Assembly: GCA_030600655.1 (NCBI GenBank)
Contig: JAUVLP010000003.1
Location: forward strand, 1-60,851
From: Candidatus Eiseniibacteriota bacterium
Lineage (GTDB): Bacteria; Joyebacterota; Joyebacteria; Joyebacterales; Joyebacteraceae
DNA length: 60,851 nucleotides
Reading direction: 5' to 3'
Shown: positions 8,849 through 20,417 of the stretch, piece by piece
How the letters are laid out: every line of letters begins with the position of its first letter
Numbering within the stretch: the first letter of the stretch is position 1
Program-made: the position numbers and the translations under genes
Notes under the pieces: model-generated
Database searches by the model: none
Told to the model about the DNA's origin: nothing
What the model saw: only the letters and a program-made list of their open reading frames with translations

Positions 8849-9736
8849 GTGTTGGAATCTCTCAGTTCATATATGGCGGAGAGGCGTGGGGTTGTAGAGG
8901 ATGCGCTCGAGTCCTTTCTCCCGGAATCCGGGGGGCGGTACTCGCGCCTCACGGACGCGATGCGCTACAGCGTTTTCTCCGGGGGGAAGAGGCTCAGGCC
9001 GATTCTTGCGATCGCGGCTTTTGAGATAGTGGGCGGAGAGGGAGATGCGGTGCTCGCCCCGGCCTGCGCGACTGAGCTCATCCACACGTATTCGCTCATC
9101 CACGATGACCTGCCGGCAATGGATGATGACGATCTCAGACGCGGCCGTCCGACTTGTCACAAGGAATTCGATGATGCGCTGGCCATTCTCGCTGGCGACG
9201 CCCTACTGACACTGGCATTCGGGATAGTGACTCAGGAGGACGTCCTTCCGCCAGAGCGTGCTGCAGCCATCGTCCGCGAACTTGCGGGCGCCAACGGTCA
9301 CGGAGGAATGTTGGGTGGGCAGGCAGCTGACATAGCGATGGAGGGAGAGCTCCCGGACATCGGGGCTATCGAGTACATCCACGGACACAAGACCGGCGCG
9401 CCGGTTGCGGCAGCGGTGAGGGTTGGCGCCATGGCTGCCGGAGCCAAGAGCATCGATATGGAGCGGCTGACGGCGTATGGGGAGAGGATAGGCATGGCTT
9501 TCCAGATCGCCGATGACCTGCTTGACGAAAGAGGCACGGCAGAGGAGATGGGCAAGGCCGTCGGCAAGGATCGTGACCACGGCAAGATGACGTATCCTGG
9601 AGTTGTGGGAGCGGAGTCAGCGGTGATTCGTGCGCAGGAACTCGTGGACGACGCGATTCAATCGCTCGATGCGTACGGGGAGCGCGTGTGGGCGCTCGCC
9701 GAGATCGCTCGATTCATAGTTGACCGCCGCAACTGA
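8849..9736 (+). CDS. ispA: Polyprenyl synthetase (geranyl/farnesyl diphosphate synthase)
   Basis: Class I trans-prenyltransferase that condenses isopentenyl diphosphate with allylic diphosphates. Start GTG 8849 directly after the xseB stop, giving 295 residues. The first aspartate-rich motif [10 protein letters not shown] is at 86-95, with GGKRLRP upstream. The second, [11 protein letters not shown], lies near 225, with [15 protein letters not shown] between them. The DDxxxxD spacing of the first motif is the bacterial FPP/GGPP type; chain length cannot be fixed by eye. It is followed by dxs, so the precursor pathway and the first elongation enzyme are made from one transcript. Confidence 0.93.
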
Positions 9737-9750
9737 CTGTTGGAGCTTTG

Positions 9751-11664
9751 ATGATGGCAAGACTTCTGGACGCTATCGACTCACCGCAGGATCTCCGGAA
9801 GCTGGATGTTGGGAAACTGGAGATACTCGCGGAGGAGCTGCGCGACGAGATAATCCAGGTTGTCTCGCGGACGGGAGGACATCTTGCTCCGAGCCTCGGT
9901 GTCGTTGAACTCACATTGGCGCTCCACTATGTGTTCGATTCCCCCCGCGACAGGATCGTTTGGGATGTGGGGCATCAGAGCTACGCGCACAAGCTTCTGA
10001 CGGGTAGGCGCGAGCGTTTTGCGACTCTTCGCCAGTACGGCGGTATCTCAGGTTTCCCCAGTAGAGAAGAGAGCCCGCACGACAGCTTTGGTACCGGTCA
10101 CGCAAGCACGTCTATCTCTGCGGCCCTCGGCATGGCGTGCTCACCCGAGTTTGCCGGGGTGAGCAGGCGGGCGATCGCAGTCATAGGAGACGGTTCGCTG
10201 ACTGCGGGTCTTGCTTTCGAAGGACTGAATCAGGCAGGACACCTGAAGCGTAATCTCATCGTGGTGGTTAATGACAACCGTATGTCGATTTCCAAGAACG
10301 TCGGTGCGCTGTCGCAGTATCTGACAAGGTTGAGAACAGCTCCAACTTATCACCGCCTCGAATCCGAGGTCTGGGAGATAATGGGGAAGATCCCCGCGAT
10401 CGGTGGGAAGGCCCGCGATCTGGCAAGCCGAGCCCTCGAGGGGATCCGGGGCGTCTTCGTGCCTGGCGTCCTCTTTGAGGAGCTGGGTTTCAAGTACTAT
10501 GGGCCAATCGATGGGCACAGTGTGGGGCTTCTGATCGAAGCGTTCGAGCGTGTGAAGTACATCGAGGGGCCGCTGTTGCTTCACGTCATGACGACGAAGG
10601 GCAAGGGCTATCAACCTGCCGAGGACGACGCATCGCGTTTTCATGGACTTGGTTCCTTTGACAAGGCCACCGGGAGTCTCAAGGCGAGGCCGAAAGCCAT
10701 CTCATATACGGAGGTGTTCGGACGAACCCTGGTGTCACTGGCGGACGACGATGAGAAGATCGTCGCGATAACAGCGGCAATGCCGGCGGGAACCGGCCTT
10801 GCCCATTTCGCGAAAACGTATCCCGAGAGATTCTTCGACGTCGGCATCGCAGAACAGCATGCCGTGACCTTTGCCGCCGGCCTGGCCGCGGAGGGGATGA
10901 AACCTGTGGTGGCCCTCTACTCGTCATTCCTGCAGCGTGCCTACGATCAAGTCATCCACGATGCATGTCTGCAGGATCTTCCCGTACGGTTCATGATCGA
11001 CAGAGGAGGGATTGTGGGTGATGACGGCCCGACGCATCACGGCGTTTTTGACCTCAGCTTCCTGCGGGCAGTCCCGAACCTCGTGCTGGCGTCTCCGAAG
11101 GATGAGAACGAGCTGGCTGCGATGGTGTGCACTGCGCTCAAGTACGATGATGGGCCGATCGCGGTGAGGTACCCCCGGGGCGCAGGTCTCGGAGTCAGAA
11201 TGGACTTCAGACCTACGGCGCTTCCGATAGGCAAAGCGGAGCGCTTGAGAAGCGGTACGGATGTCTGCCTTCTGGCCATCGGCTCCATGGTTGCCACGGC
11301 ACAGGAGGCCGCCGAGTTGCTCGTTGAAGGCGGCATACATGCGTCGGTCGTGAACGCGCGGTTTGTCAAACCGTTGGATCGCGATCTCATTTTTGAAGAA
11401 GCCGCCCGCACGGGACACATAGTGACCATTGAGGAGAACGTTGTTGCAGGTGGGTTCGGCGCTGCTGTGATGGAACTCCTTCAGGCCGAGGGCGTCTACG
11501 GAGTGCGCGTCAAGGTTCTCGGCATTCCGGACGAGTTCCTGGAGCACGGTTCGCGCTCACGCCTTCTCGCCAACTGTCACCTGACGCCGGACGGCGTAGC
11601 TGAGAGCGCTCGAGCACTCCTGCGGTCGAGTCAGAACGTGTTGAGAGAGGAGGCCGAGGAATGA
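9751..11664 (+). CDS. dxs: 1-deoxy-D-xylulose-5-phosphate synthase
   Basis: Thiamine-diphosphate enzyme joining pyruvate and glyceraldehyde 3-phosphate, the entry step of the MEP isoprenoid pathway. About 637 residues, standard length. Diagnostic stretches are [36 protein letters not shown], the ThDP motif [33 protein letters not shown], the catalytic glutamate in [15 protein letters not shown] and [19 protein letters not shown] at 9742-9745 precedes TTG 9748, ATG 9751 and ATG 9754; 9751 is a choice among near-equal starts. The 3' end overlaps nadK by ATGA. With ispA upstream it forms a small isoprenoid module. Confidence 0.97.
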
Positions 11665-12530: not shown

Positions 12531-13079
12531 ATGGCACCATTTCCACGTCCGGTTCTCCGGGATCTTGTGAAGCTACCCAACATCATGACGCTCCTCCGGC
12601 TGGCGCTGGTCCCGGTAGTGCTTGCGCTGCTCATAGGCGACAGACGGCAAGCCGCGCTGGCCACGCTTGCTCTGCTTGCTGTGACAGATTGGGTGGACGG
12701 GTTTCTGGCGAGGCATCTGGGGCAGGTCACGACGCTCGGCAAGATCCTCGACCCTCTCGCCGACAAGGTGGCGGTTGCCGCACTGGTGATCTTCCTTGCC
12801 ACAAGAGGCGAGTTACCCGTCTGGGGCGCCATCGTGGTGCTGGCGCGGGACGTCGGGATACTCATCGGCGCCCTGGTGTTGGCGCGGACCACAAAGGACG
12901 TGCCGCAGGCCGGCAGGGTGGGCAAAGCTACCGCCGTGGCGCTTGCCGTGATGGTGCTCGTGTACGTTGCCGACTGGCAGGTTGCTGAACCGATCGCATT
13001 CTGGTGCACCATGACACTGGTTGTTCTCTCGGGTTCATTGTATGTACGGACGATGCTGGCGGCGCGGGTGCCCCAGTAG
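12531..13079 (+). CDS. pgsA: CDP-diacylglycerol-glycerol-3-phosphate 3-phosphatidyltransferase
   Basis: Integral membrane enzyme committing CDP-diacylglycerol to phosphatidylglycerol. 182 residues with four or more hydrophobic helices. The CDP-alcohol phosphotransferase signature is perfect: Asp53, Asp56-Gly57, Ala60-Arg61, Gly70, Asp74 and Asp78 at the canonical spacing, and LPNIMTLLRLALVP at 15-28 is the usual first helix. The start is ATG 12531, three bases after the nadK stop. Related family members (PgsA versus CDP-alcohol transferases for other head groups) share this motif, so substrate is inferred from length and the N-terminal sequence. Confidence 0.9.
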   Translation: MAPFPRPVLRDLVKLPNIMTLLRLALVPVVLALLIGDRRQAALATLALLAVTDWVDGFLARHLGQVTTLGKILDPLADKVAVAALVIFLATRGELPVWGAIVVLARDVGILIGALVLARTTKDVPQAGRVGKATAVALAVMVLVYVADWQVAEPIAFWCTMTLVVLSGSLYVRTMLAARVPQ

Positions 13080-14424: not shown

Positions 14425-16542
14425 ATGAGAAGCTCAATCGTGATGGTGCTTGTCGTGCTGACGGTGCTGGGTGCCGTCGCGGCGCACGGTGAGACAGTCT
14501 ACTCGATCGCTCTCGACGGCGGGGCGGCAGTATCCGAGTCCATGTCAAGAGGGGGAACGGTCAGGTTCATCGGGGTCTCTGAGGCACTCATCGCGGGTGA
14601 TGCCGAACTGGGCGTTGCTCTCAGGCGTTCTGGGCTCGAAGCTGAGATCGTTTGTGACGCCGGTGACTGGGAGAATCTCTACATCTGCTACCCCGGGCGC
14701 GTCAAGAGTGATGTTGGTCGGTACAGTGAGATCCTCTGGGAAGAACCGAACGGGGTGGTGCTCGTGGGGGTGTCGACAGCAGATGTTGAGCTTCTGAGAA
14801 CTGTTTCATTCATGATCTATCCCCTTCCCATATCAGTGAATGCCGTCGAGTGGTTCGATAATACCCCGGCTCCCCTTGTCGATGCCTTGCAAGACGAGCG
14901 TTCTGTGCGGGGATTCGTGGGGGATGTGATCGATGCCATCTCCGCGGATTCGCTGCTGACCCACGTCGAGCAGCTCTCTCTGTATCCGGGCGGTGAGCTC
15001 AGAACACGCTATGTCCGACGTGAGGAGTGCTTGGATGAGGCACGCACCTACATTGTCGATTGTCTGGAACGGTATGGGGCGGTCGTGGACACGCATCACT
15101 TCGGAGTTGCCGGATACACCTGCGAAGAGGGAATAAGCGGTCCTGTGGTCATCTATCCCGCCGAGAACATCGTCGCGACCTTGCCGGGTTCGGGACGCCT
15201 CCAGGGCTCATACGTTGTCTGCGCGCACTACGACGCGATCGCCGGCAATTCATTCCCAGATACGGCGCATTTCTGGTGGTGTGACAATCCCGCACCAGGA
15301 GCGGATGACAATGCGACCGGTGTCGCGACTGTGCTCGAGATGGCGCGTGTCCTGATCGAATCCGGGGCGTCGTTCCCGTTCGATATCCGCTTCATCCTCT
15401 TTTCGGGAGAGGAGCTTGGACTTCTTGGAAGCGACGCGTACGTGGATTCGATCGCCGCGGTGGGAGACACGATCTATGCGGCTCTCAATGTAGACATGAT
15501 CGGGTACAAGCTTAGTCCGGACCACCCTGACACGTGCCATCTGGTGACCAATCAAGGCACGCGGTGGTTCGCGAACTGGATATTGGACACGGCGGAGACG
15601 GTCTATCCATCGCACTTTGACGGTCTTGACGTTGTGAGGATTGACAAGGCGCTGATGTACAGCGACCACGGCAGTTTCTGGATGAACGGCTACGATGCGC
15701 TGATCGCGATCGAGCACTGGAATCCGCGTGTACGGAACCCCTACTACCACACGATCCAGGATACATTCGCCTCGGTCTACTCAGGTCAGCTCACGGCGAT
15801 CACGAAGCTGTGCGCTGGAGCTTTCGCACGGCTGAACGATCCAGACAGCCAGATAAATCTGGTGGTCGATGAGGGCGACATCGGCATCACGCCCAATGAT
15901 CCGGGCTTCGGCACGACGGTCACTGTCGGTACCGAGGTGCACGTGTATGGTCCCGAGGAACACGTCGACGCAACTCTGGAGCTTTGGGACGGAGATGTCG
16001 ATTCAGGCGAACTTATCTCGTCCTTCAGTTTCGCCCGGACGATGGGTGGGGGCGAGTATGTGGAGCACGACTTCACCTGGGCACCGGACGAGAGTGATGT
16101 CGGAGGGCATGAGCTGAGTCTGCGCGTTACAACGACCGGCACGGACGAACTCACGATGAGCGACAATGTGGCGGTGGTGACGGTTGCTGTGACGTCCTCG
16201 GAGCTACGCATTCTCAGCCACTACACCTATCCGAATCCTGCACCGAACGCCGGCGAACTGGCATTCCGGTACGAGCTCTCGAACTCCGCAAGGCATGTCG
16301 TGCTTGAAGTGTTCGATCTCACCGGACAGAAGCTGGGCGGTCTCGAGATGTACAATGAGGAACACGGAGATGAAGCCGAGAACGCCGGTACGCTGCCGGG
16401 TTGGAACACTGTCATGTGGGACGATCTGGATGGCGAGGGTGACTTGGCGAGTGGCCTGTATATCTATAGGATCGCAGCTCGCGAGGTGGGTGTGACAGAG
16501 CCTGCCGATGTTGTCATGGGAAAGTTTGCTATCGTGAACTAG
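14425..16542 (+). CDS. Secreted M28-family zinc peptidase with C-terminal FlgD-like domain
   Basis: 705 residues starting at ATG 14425 behind GGAGG. Residues 1-21 are a signal peptide (hydrophobic core ending GAVAAHG). The catalytic domain carries the five co-catalytic zinc ligands of M28: His268 (VVCAHYDAIAG), Asp295 (GADDNATG), Glu330 with general base Glu329 (SGEELGLLGS), Asp357 (LNVDMIGY) and His415 (YSDHGSFW). A beta-rich linker of about 500-590 is followed by a C-terminal domain starting SHYTYPNPAPNAGELAFRYE and ending LASGLYIYRI. This is a FlgD/T9SS-like Ig fold common at the C-terminus of secreted proteins in FCB-group bacteria. It is probably an aminopeptidase exported for protein scavenging; whether the tail is a sorting signal is inference. 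Confidence 0.9.
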   Translation: MRSSIVMVLVVLTVLGAVAAHGETVYSIALDGGAAVSESMSRGGTVRFIGVSEALIAGDAELGVALRRSGLEAEIVCDAGDWENLYICYPGRVKSDVGRYSEILWEEPNGVVLVGVSTADVELLRTVSFMIYPLPISVNAVEWFDNTPAPLVDALQDERSVRGFVGDVIDAISADSLLTHVEQLSLYPGGELRTRYVRREECLDEARTYIVDCLERYGAVVDTHHFGVAGYTCEEGISGPVVIYPAENIVATLPGSGRLQGSYVVCAHYDAIAGNSFPDTAHFWWCDNPAPGADDNATGVATVLEMARVLIESGASFPFDIRFILFSGEELGLLGSDAYVDSIAAVGDTIYAALNVDMIGYKLSPDHPDTCHLVTNQGTRWFANWILDTAETVYPSHFDGLDVVRIDKALMYSDHGSFWMNGYDALIAIEHWNPRVRNPYYHTIQDTFASVYSGQLTAITKLCAGAFARLNDPDSQINLVVDEGDIGITPNDPGFGTTVTVGTEVHVYGPEEHVDATLELWDGDVDSGELISSFSFARTMGGGEYVEHDFTWAPDESDVGGHELSLRVTTTGTDELTMSDNVAVVTVAVTSSELRILSHYTYPNPAPNAGELAFRYELSNSARHVVLEVFDLTGQKLGGLEMYNEEHGDEAENAGTLPGWNTVMWDDLDGEGDLASGLYIYRIAAREVGVTEPADVVMGKFAIVN

Positions 16543-16564: not shown

Positions 16565-16846
16565 GTGGTGACGGACCTCGATGATTCTCCTGAGGCAGCG
16601 GAGGAACGCGTGGAAACACCCGGTCTGAGACCGAGTGGCGAAGCGAGGATCAGGCGGATCGTTATCGGTCTTGCCAATCTGGCACTGGCAGTTATGCTTT
16701 TCTATGCGGTCCACCGGTTTATGCGCGATGTGATGCCCGTCTATGGAAACCGGTTTGCCTACGTCCCGATAGCGATGGCCGGCCTGGCGTGCTGGAGAGG
16801 CGCCATAGGCGTCATCCTTCTGTCGGGGAGGCGGAGTGGACGGTAG
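16565..16846 (+). CDS. Small membrane protein of unknown function
   Basis: 93 residues from GTG 16565 (GTG 16568 is equally possible). The first 30 residues are acidic and polar, followed by two hydrophobic segments, about 31-52 (IVIGLANLALAVMLFYAVH) and 65-85 (AYVPIAMAGLACWRGAIGVI). I do not recognise a family. Its last 11 bases overlap the next gene, the HAD-lipid kinase fusion, so the two are likely co-translated and the small protein may assist that membrane enzyme; this is inferred only from position. The ribosome site is weak. Confidence 0.6.
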   Translation: MVTDLDDSPEAAEERVETPGLRPSGEARIRRIVIGLANLALAVMLFYAVHRFMRDVMPVYGNRFAYVPIAMAGLACWRGAIGVILLSGRRSGR

Positions 16847-18101
16847 TCGGGAAGGTGAGCGCAGGGGAGTAGTTGCTTTCGACTCTGACGGTGTGCTTCT
16901 CAGGCACCTGTTCCTGCTCCGCGCTGCTCAAGAGGCTGGCCCACTGACCTTGCTGAGAGCATTCTGGCTCGGGCTGCTTCTGAAGCTTGGGCGCTTGGAC
17001 ATCGGGACTGTGGTCGAGAGAGCATACGCGCTTCTGGCAGGTCGCTCCCTCGATGAGTTGCTCGCTGTTGGGGAGAGGATGCGTCTCGCTAAGGGGGCTG
17101 CAGAGGTATGCCTTGATCTGAGGCGGGCCGGCTATATCGTTGTTCTTGTGAGCGCCGGTGTTCCTCAGGAAGTGCTGGAGCTGGTGGCGGTCCGAGTCGG
17201 GGCTCAAGCGGTACATGGTGTATTGCTCGAAACCGAGAGCGGTCGCCTGACCGGGCGTCTGCTTGAACGTCGTCACACGGCCCGCGGAAAGCGCGACGGG
17301 CTTGAGAAGATCCTGCGACGCTGGGGGTTCAGCTGGCGTGAGTTGACTGTGGTGGTTGACGATGCCAGCAACGGGCAGATAGTCGATGCGGCGTGGCGCA
17401 GCGTAGCGGTGAATCCGGAACGATCGATCATGAGGACAGCGAGTTTCGTGCTGTACACCCGGAATCTCAGAGAGATCCTTGAGTTTTTCCCGGAGGGCCA
17501 CGGAAGTGGGATTACCCCCGCATGGTTGGCGGGTCGGCACGAGCTCTTTAGAAAATCGATTCACCTGTGTGCCGTAGCAGTTCCGATACTGGCCATGTGG
17601 TCGCTGACGCATACGCTGTGGCTCGTTGGCATGGTGACTCTGTTCTACGCGTTGTCGGAGCAGTTCAGGGTGTTGGGTGTTGCGCTGCCGCTCTTTTCGA
17701 CGGTGACTTGGCGGGCAATGCGTTCGGCTGAGTGCCGGGGGTTCGTACTGGGGCCGCTGCTGTTCGGCATAGGCATATGGTTGACGCTTGCTCTATTTTC
17801 GCTATCAGCGGCGACCGTAGGTATACTGGTGCTAGCGGTTGGTGACGGTGCCGCGAGTCTCATGGGGCGGGTATTTGGCCGGACTGTGCTGGCCTACAAC
17901 CGGGAGAAAACGATCGTCGGATCGCTCACTGTCTTTGTCGTAGGCGCGGTTGTTGCTATGAGCTATCTACCGTTGGGCTGGTCGCTTGCGGTAGGGGTTG
18001 TTGCCAGCTTTCTGGAATCGCTACCACTTGGAGCATATGACAATCTATTGCTTCCATTGGTGTCTGCCGGCATGGTATCTGTTGCTCTGACGCTGGCCTA
18101 G
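16836..18101 (+). CDS. HAD-superfamily phosphatase fused to a CTP-dependent prenol/diacylglycerol kinase-like domain
   Basis: 421 residues from GTG 16836 behind GGGAGG. Residues about 10-215 look like a SerB-type HAD hydrolase: nucleophile loop VVAFDSDGVLL, motif II IVVLVSAG, a Lys in ARGKRDGLEKIL and an acidic motif VVVDDASNGQIVD. From about residue 228 the protein becomes a polytopic membrane domain opening with ELFRKSIHLCAV and containing GDGAASLMGRVFGR then EKTIVGSL. These are features of the dolichol kinase/phytol kinase/CTP:diacylglycerol kinase family, with roughly six hydrophobic helices. I infer opposing or sequential phosphate chemistry on a lipid alcohol, possibly an undecaprenyl or other polyprenyl carrier. 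I know of no characterised protein with this pairing. Confidence 0.8.
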   Translation: MDGSREGERRGVVAFDSDGVLLRHLFLLRAAQEAGPLTLLRAFWLGLLLKLGRLDIGTVVERAYALLAGRSLDELLAVGERMRLAKGAAEVCLDLRRAGYIVVLVSAGVPQEVLELVAVRVGAQAVHGVLLETESGRLTGRLLERRHTARGKRDGLEKILRRWGFSWRELTVVVDDASNGQIVDAAWRSVAVNPERSIMRTASFVLYTRNLREILEFFPEGHGSGITPAWLAGRHELFRKSIHLCAVAVPILAMWSLTHTLWLVGMVTLFYALSEQFRVLGVALPLFSTVTWRAMRSAECRGFVLGPLLFGIGIWLTLALFSLSAATVGILVLAVGDGAASLMGRVFGRTVLAYNREKTIVGSLTVFVVGAVVAMSYLPLGWSLAVGVVASFLESLPLGAYDNLLLPLVSAGMVSVALTLA

Positions 18102-18155: not shown

Positions 18156-19451
18156 GTGTTGCTCAAGGACAAGCTCCTGGCGAAGGAGGCGAAGCTTAGT
18201 GTGATCGGCCTCGGGTACGTTGGTCTCCCGCTTTCGATGGAATTCGTGCGGGCAGGCTATAGAGTGATCGGGATCGATACGAACGAAGAGAAGGTAAAAA
18301 GTCTGATGTCGGGTGAGTCGTACATCCCTGATGTTCCCAGTGAGTGGGTGAGGGATGCCGTCGAAAGCGGTGCGTTCATTGCGACGACTGATTTCTCGAT
18401 GCTAGCCGATGTGGACACGGTGGATATATGTGTTCCGACGCCTCTCAGGAAGACGAAGGATCCGGACATCTCGTTCGTGAGTGCGGCGGTCGAGGAGATC
18501 GTGAAATACCTGCATCCAGGCATGATGATAATTCTCGACAGCACAACCTATCCCGGAACCACCGATGAGGTGATTCTTCCGCGATTGGAGGAGACGGGTC
18601 TCGTCGTCGGGAAGGATTTCTATCTCGCGTTCTCACCGGAGCGCGTGGATCCTGGAAACCAGGATTGGACAACGAAGAACATCCCGAAGGTCGTAGGTGG
18701 CGTAACTCCCGCATGCACGGAACATGCAGCGCTTATCTACAAGCAGACGCTCGGGCCGGTTGTGCCTGTTTCGTCCACGAAGGTTGCGGAGACGGTGAAG
18801 CTTCTCGAGAATACGTTCAGAAGTGTCAACATCGGCCTAGTGAACGAAATGGCTCTGATGTGCGACCGCATGGGAATAGATGTGTGGGAGGTGATAGATG
18901 CGGCCGCCACGAAGCCGTTCGGTTTCATGCCATTCTATCCGGGGCCGGGGTTGGGTGGCCACTGCATCCCGATCGATCCGTTCTATCTCTCGTGGAAGGC
19001 CAAGGAGAGCGGATTTGAAGCACGGTTCATCGAACTCGCGGGGGTGGTGAACAGCAGCATGCCTTTCTATGTCGTCGGCAAGATCGTCGACTGTCTCAAC
19101 GACCAGAGGAAGCCTGTGAGGGGATCCAAAGTGCTGATTCTGGGCGTAGCCTACAAGGAGGACATCGACGATCTCAGAGAGTCGCCCGCCCTCGATATCA
19201 TCAAGCTTCTCAGCGAGAAGGGCGCTGATCTGGCGTATTCCGATCCATTCGTGCCTGCATTTGCAGTCGGATCGTTGGAGTTGACCTGTGTCGAATTGAC
19301 CGCCGAGGCGCTGGCGGGATTTGACTGCGCGGTAATCGCGACAGCTCACAGCGCATTCGACTACGAAACGATCGTGGCCGCCGGAATCCCGATAGTGGAC
19401 GCGCGTAATGCGTTGAAGGGGATCAAGGCGAATCACATTACGAGAATATAG
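18156..19451 (+). CDS. Nucleotide sugar dehydrogenase (UDP-GlcNAc/ManNAc 6-dehydrogenase type)
   Basis: 431 residues. The N-terminal Rossmann motif VIGLGYVGLPLSMEF is at 16-30, the central domain contains FSPERVDPGN, and the catalytic cysteine sits in GPGLGGHCIPIDPFYLSWK near 270. This is the WbpA/TviB/WecC-like branch of UDP-sugar dehydrogenases, making UDP-HexNAcA uronic acids for O-antigen, capsule or exopolysaccharide. Exact substrate is not readable. AAGGAGGG sits two bases before GTG 18156 and five before TTG 18159, so TTG may be the true start. It is followed after 21 bases by an epimerase gene, forming a sugar-nucleotide pair. Confidence 0.9.
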   Translation: MLLKDKLLAKEAKLSVIGLGYVGLPLSMEFVRAGYRVIGIDTNEEKVKSLMSGESYIPDVPSEWVRDAVESGAFIATTDFSMLADVDTVDICVPTPLRKTKDPDISFVSAAVEEIVKYLHPGMMIILDSTTYPGTTDEVILPRLEETGLVVGKDFYLAFSPERVDPGNQDWTTKNIPKVVGGVTPACTEHAALIYKQTLGPVVPVSSTKVAETVKLLENTFRSVNIGLVNEMALMCDRMGIDVWEVIDAAATKPFGFMPFYPGPGLGGHCIPIDPFYLSWKAKESGFEARFIELAGVVNSSMPFYVVGKIVDCLNDQRKPVRGSKVLILGVAYKEDIDDLRESPALDIIKLLSEKGADLAYSDPFVPAFAVGSLELTCVELTAEALAGFDCAVIATAHSAFDYETIVAAGIPIVDARNALKGIKANHITRI

Positions 19452-19472: not shown

Positions 19473-20417
19473 ATGTCGATAGCACTTGTAACAGGTGGAG
19501 CAGGATTCATAGGATCCCATCTCGTAGAACGGCTGCTCGAGCAGGGGCGCGATGTTCGAGTTGTGGACAATTTCTCAACAGGGCGTCGAATAAACGTGGC
19601 GCATCTGCTTGAGAGGATCGACCTGAGAGAGGTCGACATCAGAGATCTGGACGCGATGCGTGATGCTATGAGGAATGTTGATGTCGTGTTTCACGAGGCG
19701 GCGCTTGCGTCCGTTCCGAGGTCAGTTGAAGATCCAGTGACCAGCAATGAAGTGAACATCGTCGGTACCCTGAACGTTCTCGTGGCTGCACGGGATGCTG
19801 GGGTGCGCAGAGTTGTCTATGCCAGCTCCTCTTCCGTCTATGGTGAATCGCAGGAGCTTCCCAAGACGGAAGAAATGCGACCGCTTCCCATGTCACCGTA
19901 TGCCGTTGGCAAGCTGGCAGGTGAGCACTACTGCGTGAGCTTCAACGGTCTTTATGACATAGAGACCGTCTGTCTCAGGTACTTCAACGTGTTCGGACCT
20001 CGACAGGATCCAACGTCCCAGTATTCTGCAGCCGTGCCCATCTTTACCAGCGCATTGCTCAGAGGTGATGTCCCCACCATCTACGGCGATGGTGAGCAGT
20101 CCCGCGATTTTACGTACGTAACGAGCGTAGTTGAGGCGAACGTTCTGGCGGGTGAGAACGATCGTGCTCCCGGCGGTGTCTTCAATGTGGCGAGAGGGGA
20201 TACCGTGACCGTGAACGAGCTGTTCACATCACTGACGGGGCTCATCGGTGTCGACACCAAGGCCAGGTTCGCCGATGCGCGCCGCGGTGACATCAAGCAC
20301 TCGTACGCCGACATCACACGCGCGCAAGACGTGCTCGGATACGTACCACTGCTCGGTTTCGAGGATGGACTGCGGCTGACGGTCGACTGGTTCAGAGAGC
20401 ACAACGCCGGCGCCTGA
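19473..20417 (+). CDS. NAD-dependent nucleotide-sugar epimerase (UDP-GlcNAc/UDP-Glc 4-epimerase type)
   Basis: 314 residues, extended short-chain dehydrogenase. NAD-binding GGAGFIGSHLVERL is at 8-21, the catalytic serine region is VYASSSSVYGES, and the Tyr-x3-Lys pair lies in PMSPYAVGKLAGE near 146. NVFGPRQDPTSQYSAAVP and DGEQSRDFTYV are typical of the GalE/WbpP branch. With the dehydrogenase upstream it resembles the WbpP-WbpA or TviC-TviB pairs that make UDP-GalNAcA-type precursors for surface polysaccharide. The pathway assignment is inference; the fold and enzyme class are secure. Confidence 0.9.
   Translation: MSIALVTGGAGFIGSHLVERLLEQGRDVRVVDNFSTGRRINVAHLLERIDLREVDIRDLDAMRDAMRNVDVVFHEAALASVPRSVEDPVTSNEVNIVGTLNVLVAARDAGVRRVVYASSSSVYGESQELPKTEEMRPLPMSPYAVGKLAGEHYCVSFNGLYDIETVCLRYFNVFGPRQDPTSQYSAAVPIFTSALLRGDVPTIYGDGEQSRDFTYVTSVVEANVLAGENDRAPGGVFNVARGDTVTVNELFTSLTGLIGVDTKARFADARRGDIKHSYADITRAQDVLGYVPLLGFEDGLRLTVDWFREHNAGA

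Follow-up and report, generated by a model that had tools for sequence, protein, structure and literature searches.

Bacteria must keep free lipid alcohols and their phosphates in balance, chiefly for the polyprenyl carrier of cell-wall and surface-sugar synthesis, and in the superfamily of CTP-dependent lipid kinases few bacterial members have an assigned substrate. The window analysed here (the whole stretch of 60,851 nucleotides) contains a 421-codon frame with a GTG start, at positions 16836-18101 (+), in which an N-terminal HAD-IB phosphatase domain is followed by a C-terminal membrane domain, and the question it raises is what a predicted phosphatase and a predicted lipid kinase would do in one chain. 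Were both predictions true, the size of a lipid-phosphate pool could be under the control of a single chain. Both domains are of known kinds, and what seems to be new is their union; present across a little-known phylum, within a string of isoprenoid and sugar-nucleotide genes and in organisms without DgkA, the fusion is a candidate for a self-contained lipid-phosphate switch. A sequence-only reading of this locus had proposed that one frame joins the two domains, and the four motifs it quoted do share that frame: VVAFDSDGVLL (residues 12-22), VVVDDASNG (172-180), ELFRKSIHL (236-244) and GDGAASLMGRVFGR (336-349). The start codon is preceded by GGGGAGGCGGA, identical among same-genus genomes, and a good ribosome-binding site lies ahead of it. 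An AlphaFold2 model of the whole chain, based on a 32-sequence alignment (mean pLDDT 89, pTM 0.77), consists of a HAD fold, a helical linker modelled with moderate confidence (residues 219-234; 17490-17537, +) and a bundle of membrane helices, and among the Foldseek matches listed for this model there were HAD proteins only.

The membrane half (residues 235-421; 17538-18098, +) had been expected to match a kinase family. Searched alone, residues 235-421 gave zero Pfam or NCBIfam matches, even at permissive E-values, and the expectation holds only through its stand-alone relatives, which are widespread proteins of 190-220 amino acids. A family profile built from the membrane half and these relatives matched the crystallised CdsA of T. 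maritima (4q2e/4q2g) with an E-value of 2e-4 over the nucleotide motif, DS.A...G..FGRT....K(S)xEG, and aligned the same motif of the organism's own CdsA with a P-value of 4e-5 but a probability of only 69% (hhalign). PF01148 was matched at E<1 by 11 of the 33 family members, most of them weakly (best 2.4e-8), with no direct match for the window protein. The consensus of the 33 sequences, [E]xxRKxxH ... GDxxAxxxGxxFG ... K[TS]xxG ... E ... DN...P, contains the invariant residues R239, H243, D337, G344, G348, G362, E394, D402 and N403, plus a P. In the window protein the RKxxH charged-clamp motif (R239, K240, H243) occupies 17550-17564, the nucleotide motif GD(336-337)..A...G..FG ... KT(358-359)..GS, aligned to CdsA, lies at 17841-17912, and E394 and D402-N403 fall within 18015-18044, all on the + strand. 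Together these motifs and profiles place the domain in the CdsA/SEC59/DGK1/VTE5 superfamily and bear out its description as a kinase-type membrane domain.

Within that superfamily, the RK..H clamp is identical to the published Arg-Lys-His triad of PfPolK, a malaria prenol kinase that makes farnesyl and geranylgeranyl phosphate with CTP and whose triad has been modelled as a clamp orienting the CTP phosphates and the prenol hydroxyl (PMC10849223). SEC59/DOLK, DGK1, VTE5, FOLK and PfPolK share with the window protein the clamp, the GD..A...G..FG, K[TS]..G, E and DN motifs and about eight helices, and like it they are related to CdsA across the nucleotide motif; the fusion differs from these kinases, with which it was compared by published motif alone, in having diverged beyond Pfam and NCBIfam recognition and in its N-terminal HAD domain. 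The nucleotide-motif region is also shared with CdsA itself (PF01148; 4q2e), but the domain has about 190 residues, not about 260-290, and carries the RK..H motif of the kinases. We rejected CdsA as the identity of the membrane half, which reaches neither the PF01148 gathering score nor a full-length match, the CdsA of this genome being encoded elsewhere (186 bits). The fusion protein likewise has no match to PF01219, the DgkA-type diacylglycerol/undecaprenol kinase family. Given the CdsA-profile match, the invariant motifs, the RK..H clamp and the separate CdsA, the best reading of the membrane half is a CTP-dependent lipid-alcohol kinase of the SEC59/DGK1/VTE5 type, and we regard the predicted kinase chemistry as very likely. 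Modelled alone, this half reaches a pLDDT of 93 (AlphaFold2), and Foldseek found nothing significantly similar to this model among solved structures, in line with the absence of any solved structure for CTP-dependent lipid-alcohol kinases (PMC13397572).

The best overall explanation, to which we give somewhat less than an even chance, is that the chain combines a kinase and a phosphatase acting in opposite directions on one lipid-phosphate pool, with a slight lean to a polyprenyl one. We infer an inner-membrane, two-domain lipid-phosphate enzyme whose C-terminal domain, with about eight membrane helices, would use CTP to phosphorylate a lipid alcohol in the manner of dolichol, phytol, farnesol and diacylglycerol kinases, and whose HAD-IB domain, on the cytoplasmic side and next to the kinase active site, would strip phosphate off a hydrophobic phosphate ester via an aspartyl-phosphate intermediate at D16. 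A cytoplasmic location is expected for both active sites, because the kinase would use CTP and no signal sequence precedes the HAD domain. The two sites would share a single lipid/lipid-phosphate pair, with the ratio of the two activities setting the pool; that both domains work on the same pool is close to an even call. The lipid may be the polyprenyl carrier (polyprenol and polyprenyl phosphate), an identification that we favour slightly over its close rival, diacylglycerol and phosphatidate, and to which we nonetheless assign less than even likelihood.

The lean towards polyprenyl phosphate comes from the neighbouring isoprenoid and sugar-nucleotide genes and from the absence of DgkA and DUF92. 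Neighbourhood genes, called with a composition-scored ORF picker and tblastn, run in the order xseA-xseB-ispA-dxs-nadK-(pgsA)-DUF362 ferredoxin-M28 peptidase-two-helix protein upstream of the fusion and UDP-sugar dehydrogenase-epimerase-sigma54 regulator-LptE-HolA-FadL-LeuRS downstream of it, all in one direction, and this order holds in 12 of 12 neighbourhoods over the length that each contig covers. An ispA-like polyprenyl synthetase (8849-9736, +) and dxs (9748-11664, +) lie upstream in every relative with enough contig, and a UDP-sugar dehydrogenase (18156-19451, +) and an NAD-dependent epimerase (19473-20417, +) are directly downstream in all relatives. The whole string includes unrelated housekeeping genes, so that proximity within it counts for little as an argument for any one pathway. 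As observations on the string itself, its order and direction from xseA to leuS (7355-27650 in the window) are kept across 8 genera, and the M28-family peptidase (14425-16542), always just upstream, shows in a C-terminal stretch a weak similarity to a type IX secretion sorting domain. Among 20 genomes of the phylum, DgkA (PF01219) is absent from all, being present in 8 of 14 controls, and DUF92, the prenyl-phosphate kinase type, is also absent from all 20; the expected end product is therefore the monophosphate.

Several observations count against opposing activities on a polyprenyl pool. UppP/BacA and PAP2 are each found in 19 of the 20 phylum genomes and soluble lipid kinases of the DAGK_cat family in 16, so that neither activity need be unique to the fusion; the kinase-half model has no significant structural match; and a chain with opposing activities would consume CTP to no purpose if it were not regulated. 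A possible regulatory partner is the small two-helix membrane protein that the earlier reading had seen overlapping the start of the fusion, and the overlap is there: the 93-residue frame (16565-16846, +), which belongs to no family, ends 11 nt into the fusion gene. It occupies the same upstream place in all 18 intact fusion copies and was found by tblastn in 12 of 12 neighbourhoods, with R51, G61 and F64 among its invariant residues, and in every copy it either overlaps the start of the fusion or directly adjoins it, which suggests translational coupling; the small protein might perhaps modulate the two activities. A more far-reaching proposal takes the single chain as a bifunctional lipid kinase/phosphatase, following the logic of the soluble kinase/phosphatase PFK-2/FBPase-2, by which the whole phylum would adjust its polyprenyl-phosphate (or phosphatidate) pool in the inner leaflet, with a dedicated two-helix membrane partner tuning the enzyme; as a whole we consider this rather unlikely.

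The strongest competing account places the enzyme in glycerolipid synthesis, where a DGK1-like, CTP-dependent diacylglycerol kinase would feed phosphatidate to CdsA and to the pgsA-like enzyme of the string, and the HAD domain would dephosphorylate phosphatidate or phosphatidylglycerophosphate. Two other genomes carry PlsY, an enzyme of the phosphatidate pathway, fused to the same kinase domain, which favours a glycerolipid over a polyprenyl substrate, and the absence of DgkA from the phylum would also fit. The pgsA-like CDP-alcohol phosphatidyltransferase (12531-13079, +) lies four genes upstream of the fusion in most relatives, but it is the one gene missing from the string in two of them (G005 and G009), where the fusion stays and ispA and dxs are still upstream. 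Canonical PgpA, present in 19 of the 20 phylum genomes, leaves no gap for a phosphatidylglycerophosphate phosphatase, and on this count we rejected that activity, as a necessary role of the HAD half, as a leading idea. The DAGK_cat lipid kinases of the phylum count against a glycerolipid role as well, and fusions of the kinase domain to DUF92 in other genomes point to prenols. On balance we find the glycerolipid account somewhat unlikely.

A second alternative retains the kinase and gives the HAD domain a different substrate: it would act on another phosphate of the pathway, such as that of a lipid-linked sugar or of a lipid-alcohol precursor, and not on the kinase product, and the fusion would serve for channelling. 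A precedent exists in ORF15 of Citrobacter youngae, a HAD-UbiA fusion that is a polyprenyl phosphoribofuranose synthase and whose HAD domain targets an additional phosphate on the polyprenyl-linked product (PMC11127046). Like the window protein, ORF15 has an N-terminal HAD phosphatase on a C-terminal integral membrane enzyme, in its case one acting on polyprenyl phosphate; it differs in that its membrane half is a UbiA domain performing phosphoribosyl transfer, not a CTP-type kinase, and its HAD domain removes a sugar phosphate. This publication also bears on the earlier statement that no characterised protein with this pairing is known: a limited search of the searchable literature, with few subscription papers, found no description of a HAD-lipid kinase fusion, whereas a HAD domain on a UbiA-family enzyme of polyprenyl phosphate was already on record. 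By analogy with ORF15 a sequential scheme would be equally possible in principle, and the UDP-sugar dehydrogenase and epimerase directly downstream would suit it; the window protein, however, has no sugar-phosphate transferase domain and nothing in the analysis points to such a substrate, and we judge the scheme improbable.

Opposing activities on one pool presuppose that the HAD half is an active enzyme. Residues 8-218 (16857-17489, +) match PF12710 with 40 bits against a gathering score of 27 (E 7.2e-10), the scores of relatives reaching 69 bits, and matches to the SerB and HAD-IB NCBIfam models are well below cut-offs. The closest solved relatives are SerB phosphoserine phosphatases: a profile of the HAD half matches the MjPSP structure 1f5s with an E-value of 2e-19, and Foldseek aligns the model to 1f5s/1l7o with a TM-score of about 0.9 over the 209-residue target. 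In the 18 copies of the fusion the DxD of motif I (D16 and D18; 16881-16889, +), Ser106 of motif II (17151-17153, +) and Lys152 of motif III (17289-17291, +) are invariant, as is DDxSN of motif IV (D175-N179; 17358-17372, +) except at x. Catalysis should be possible because D16, D18, S106, K152, D175-D176 and N179 are all invariant, DD being a recognised variant of motif IV in HAD enzymes, and an active phosphatase is the likely reading. In motif IV, SerB has a second acidic residue after the Asn (D171 of MjPSP); it is not kept in the fusion, a loss that weighs against a functioning phosphatase and would agree with a regulatory or degenerate domain that binds a phosphate ester without hydrolysing it. 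That idea is highly doubtful, given that the remaining catalytic residues are invariant and that dN/dS between genus members is as low in the HAD half as in the kinase half (0.10-0.18 for both); within the genus, purifying selection acts on the two alike.

What the phosphatase would act on is suggested by the substrate-recognising positions. At the position of E20 in MjPSP (+9 from the nucleophile, ungapped), a residue that we take to hold the amino group of phosphoserine, the fusion has Leu25, or Met in one copy; the position of R56 in MjPSP aligns with the invariant Ala63, which adjoins a nearly invariant Arg62, and the cap contains a conserved, strongly hydrophobic helix, WLG..LLK. Because the Glu is replaced by Leu or Met throughout and the conserved cap helix is hydrophobic, we conclude that the HAD half is a predicted phosphatase of something other than phosphoserine, plausibly of a lipid phosphate. 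The label of SerB-like HAD hydrolase given earlier is right as to the fold and the PF12710 family, although the Glu that recognises phosphoserine is lost. With SerB and the HAD-IB phosphatases (PF12710, TIGR00338, TIGR01490) the domain shares fold, cap type, motifs I-III and a motif IV of the DD type; it differs in falling below their cut-offs, in lacking the phosphoserine Glu, in its hydrophobic cap helix and in being fused to a membrane domain. That it is nevertheless the organism's own phosphoserine phosphatase, accidentally fused, we consider extremely unlikely: its best structural match is SerB and no separate SerB was recognised in the genome (G000), whose three other PF12710-type matches are of HAD-IA/IIIA types, but its TIGR00338 score is 53 bits against a cut-off of 144 and the expected Glu is gone.

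The union of the two halves is itself a conserved feature. Protein searches recovered the fusion uninterrupted in 17 of the 20 phylum genomes, as 18 copies in 8 genera with 56-87% identity; an eighteenth genome (G002) carries its 3' two thirds at a contig end, and no match was found in the remaining two, whose completeness is 57% and 90%. No relative has the two halves split, and the fusion is genuine, as the selection on both halves and the fixed gene order also show. We found no supporting point for two genes having been joined by a mistake in assembly or frame, and this is ruled out because 17 independent genomes from 8 genera have the same uninterrupted frame. The named relatives among public assemblies are metagenome-assembled genomes deposited as Candidatus Eisenbacteria, plus one 'bacterium isolate SY70-5-12_Bin_1'. 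One genome (G013) has two copies on different contigs (G013:C70:43817-45058 and G013:C191:4465-5700), through either duplication or mixed strains.

Beyond the phylum, the distribution was surveyed in 386 genomes sampled from the whole domain, for the most part one or two to a family; about 370 of them belong to other families. Outside the phylum no match in this sample spanned both halves, no relative was found in the plasmids or viral contigs searched, and the pairing of HAD and kinase domains looks like a phylum trait on the 386 genomes covered. Among the longer frames inspected, the kinase domain elsewhere stands alone, is fused behind PlsY or is placed in front of DUF92; these are also two-domain lipid enzymes with the same kinase domain, and their partner is an acyltransferase or a second domain of the prenyl-phosphate-kinase type, not a phosphatase. 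Both kinds of fusion offer independent handles on the role of the wider family. PlsY (glycerol-3-phosphate acyltransferase) precedes the domain in two genomes of other families, at L091:6208-7395 (-) and L093:6080-7270 (-), in what is possibly a bifunctional enzyme of the phosphatidate pathway. Fusions to the VTE6-like DUF92, putatively a prenol kinase and a prenyl-phosphate kinase in one chain, occur in several bacterial families, at L089:5869-7230 (+), L092:5634-6953 (+) and L096:5618-6910 (+), and additionally at L131, L132, L134, L135 and L137.
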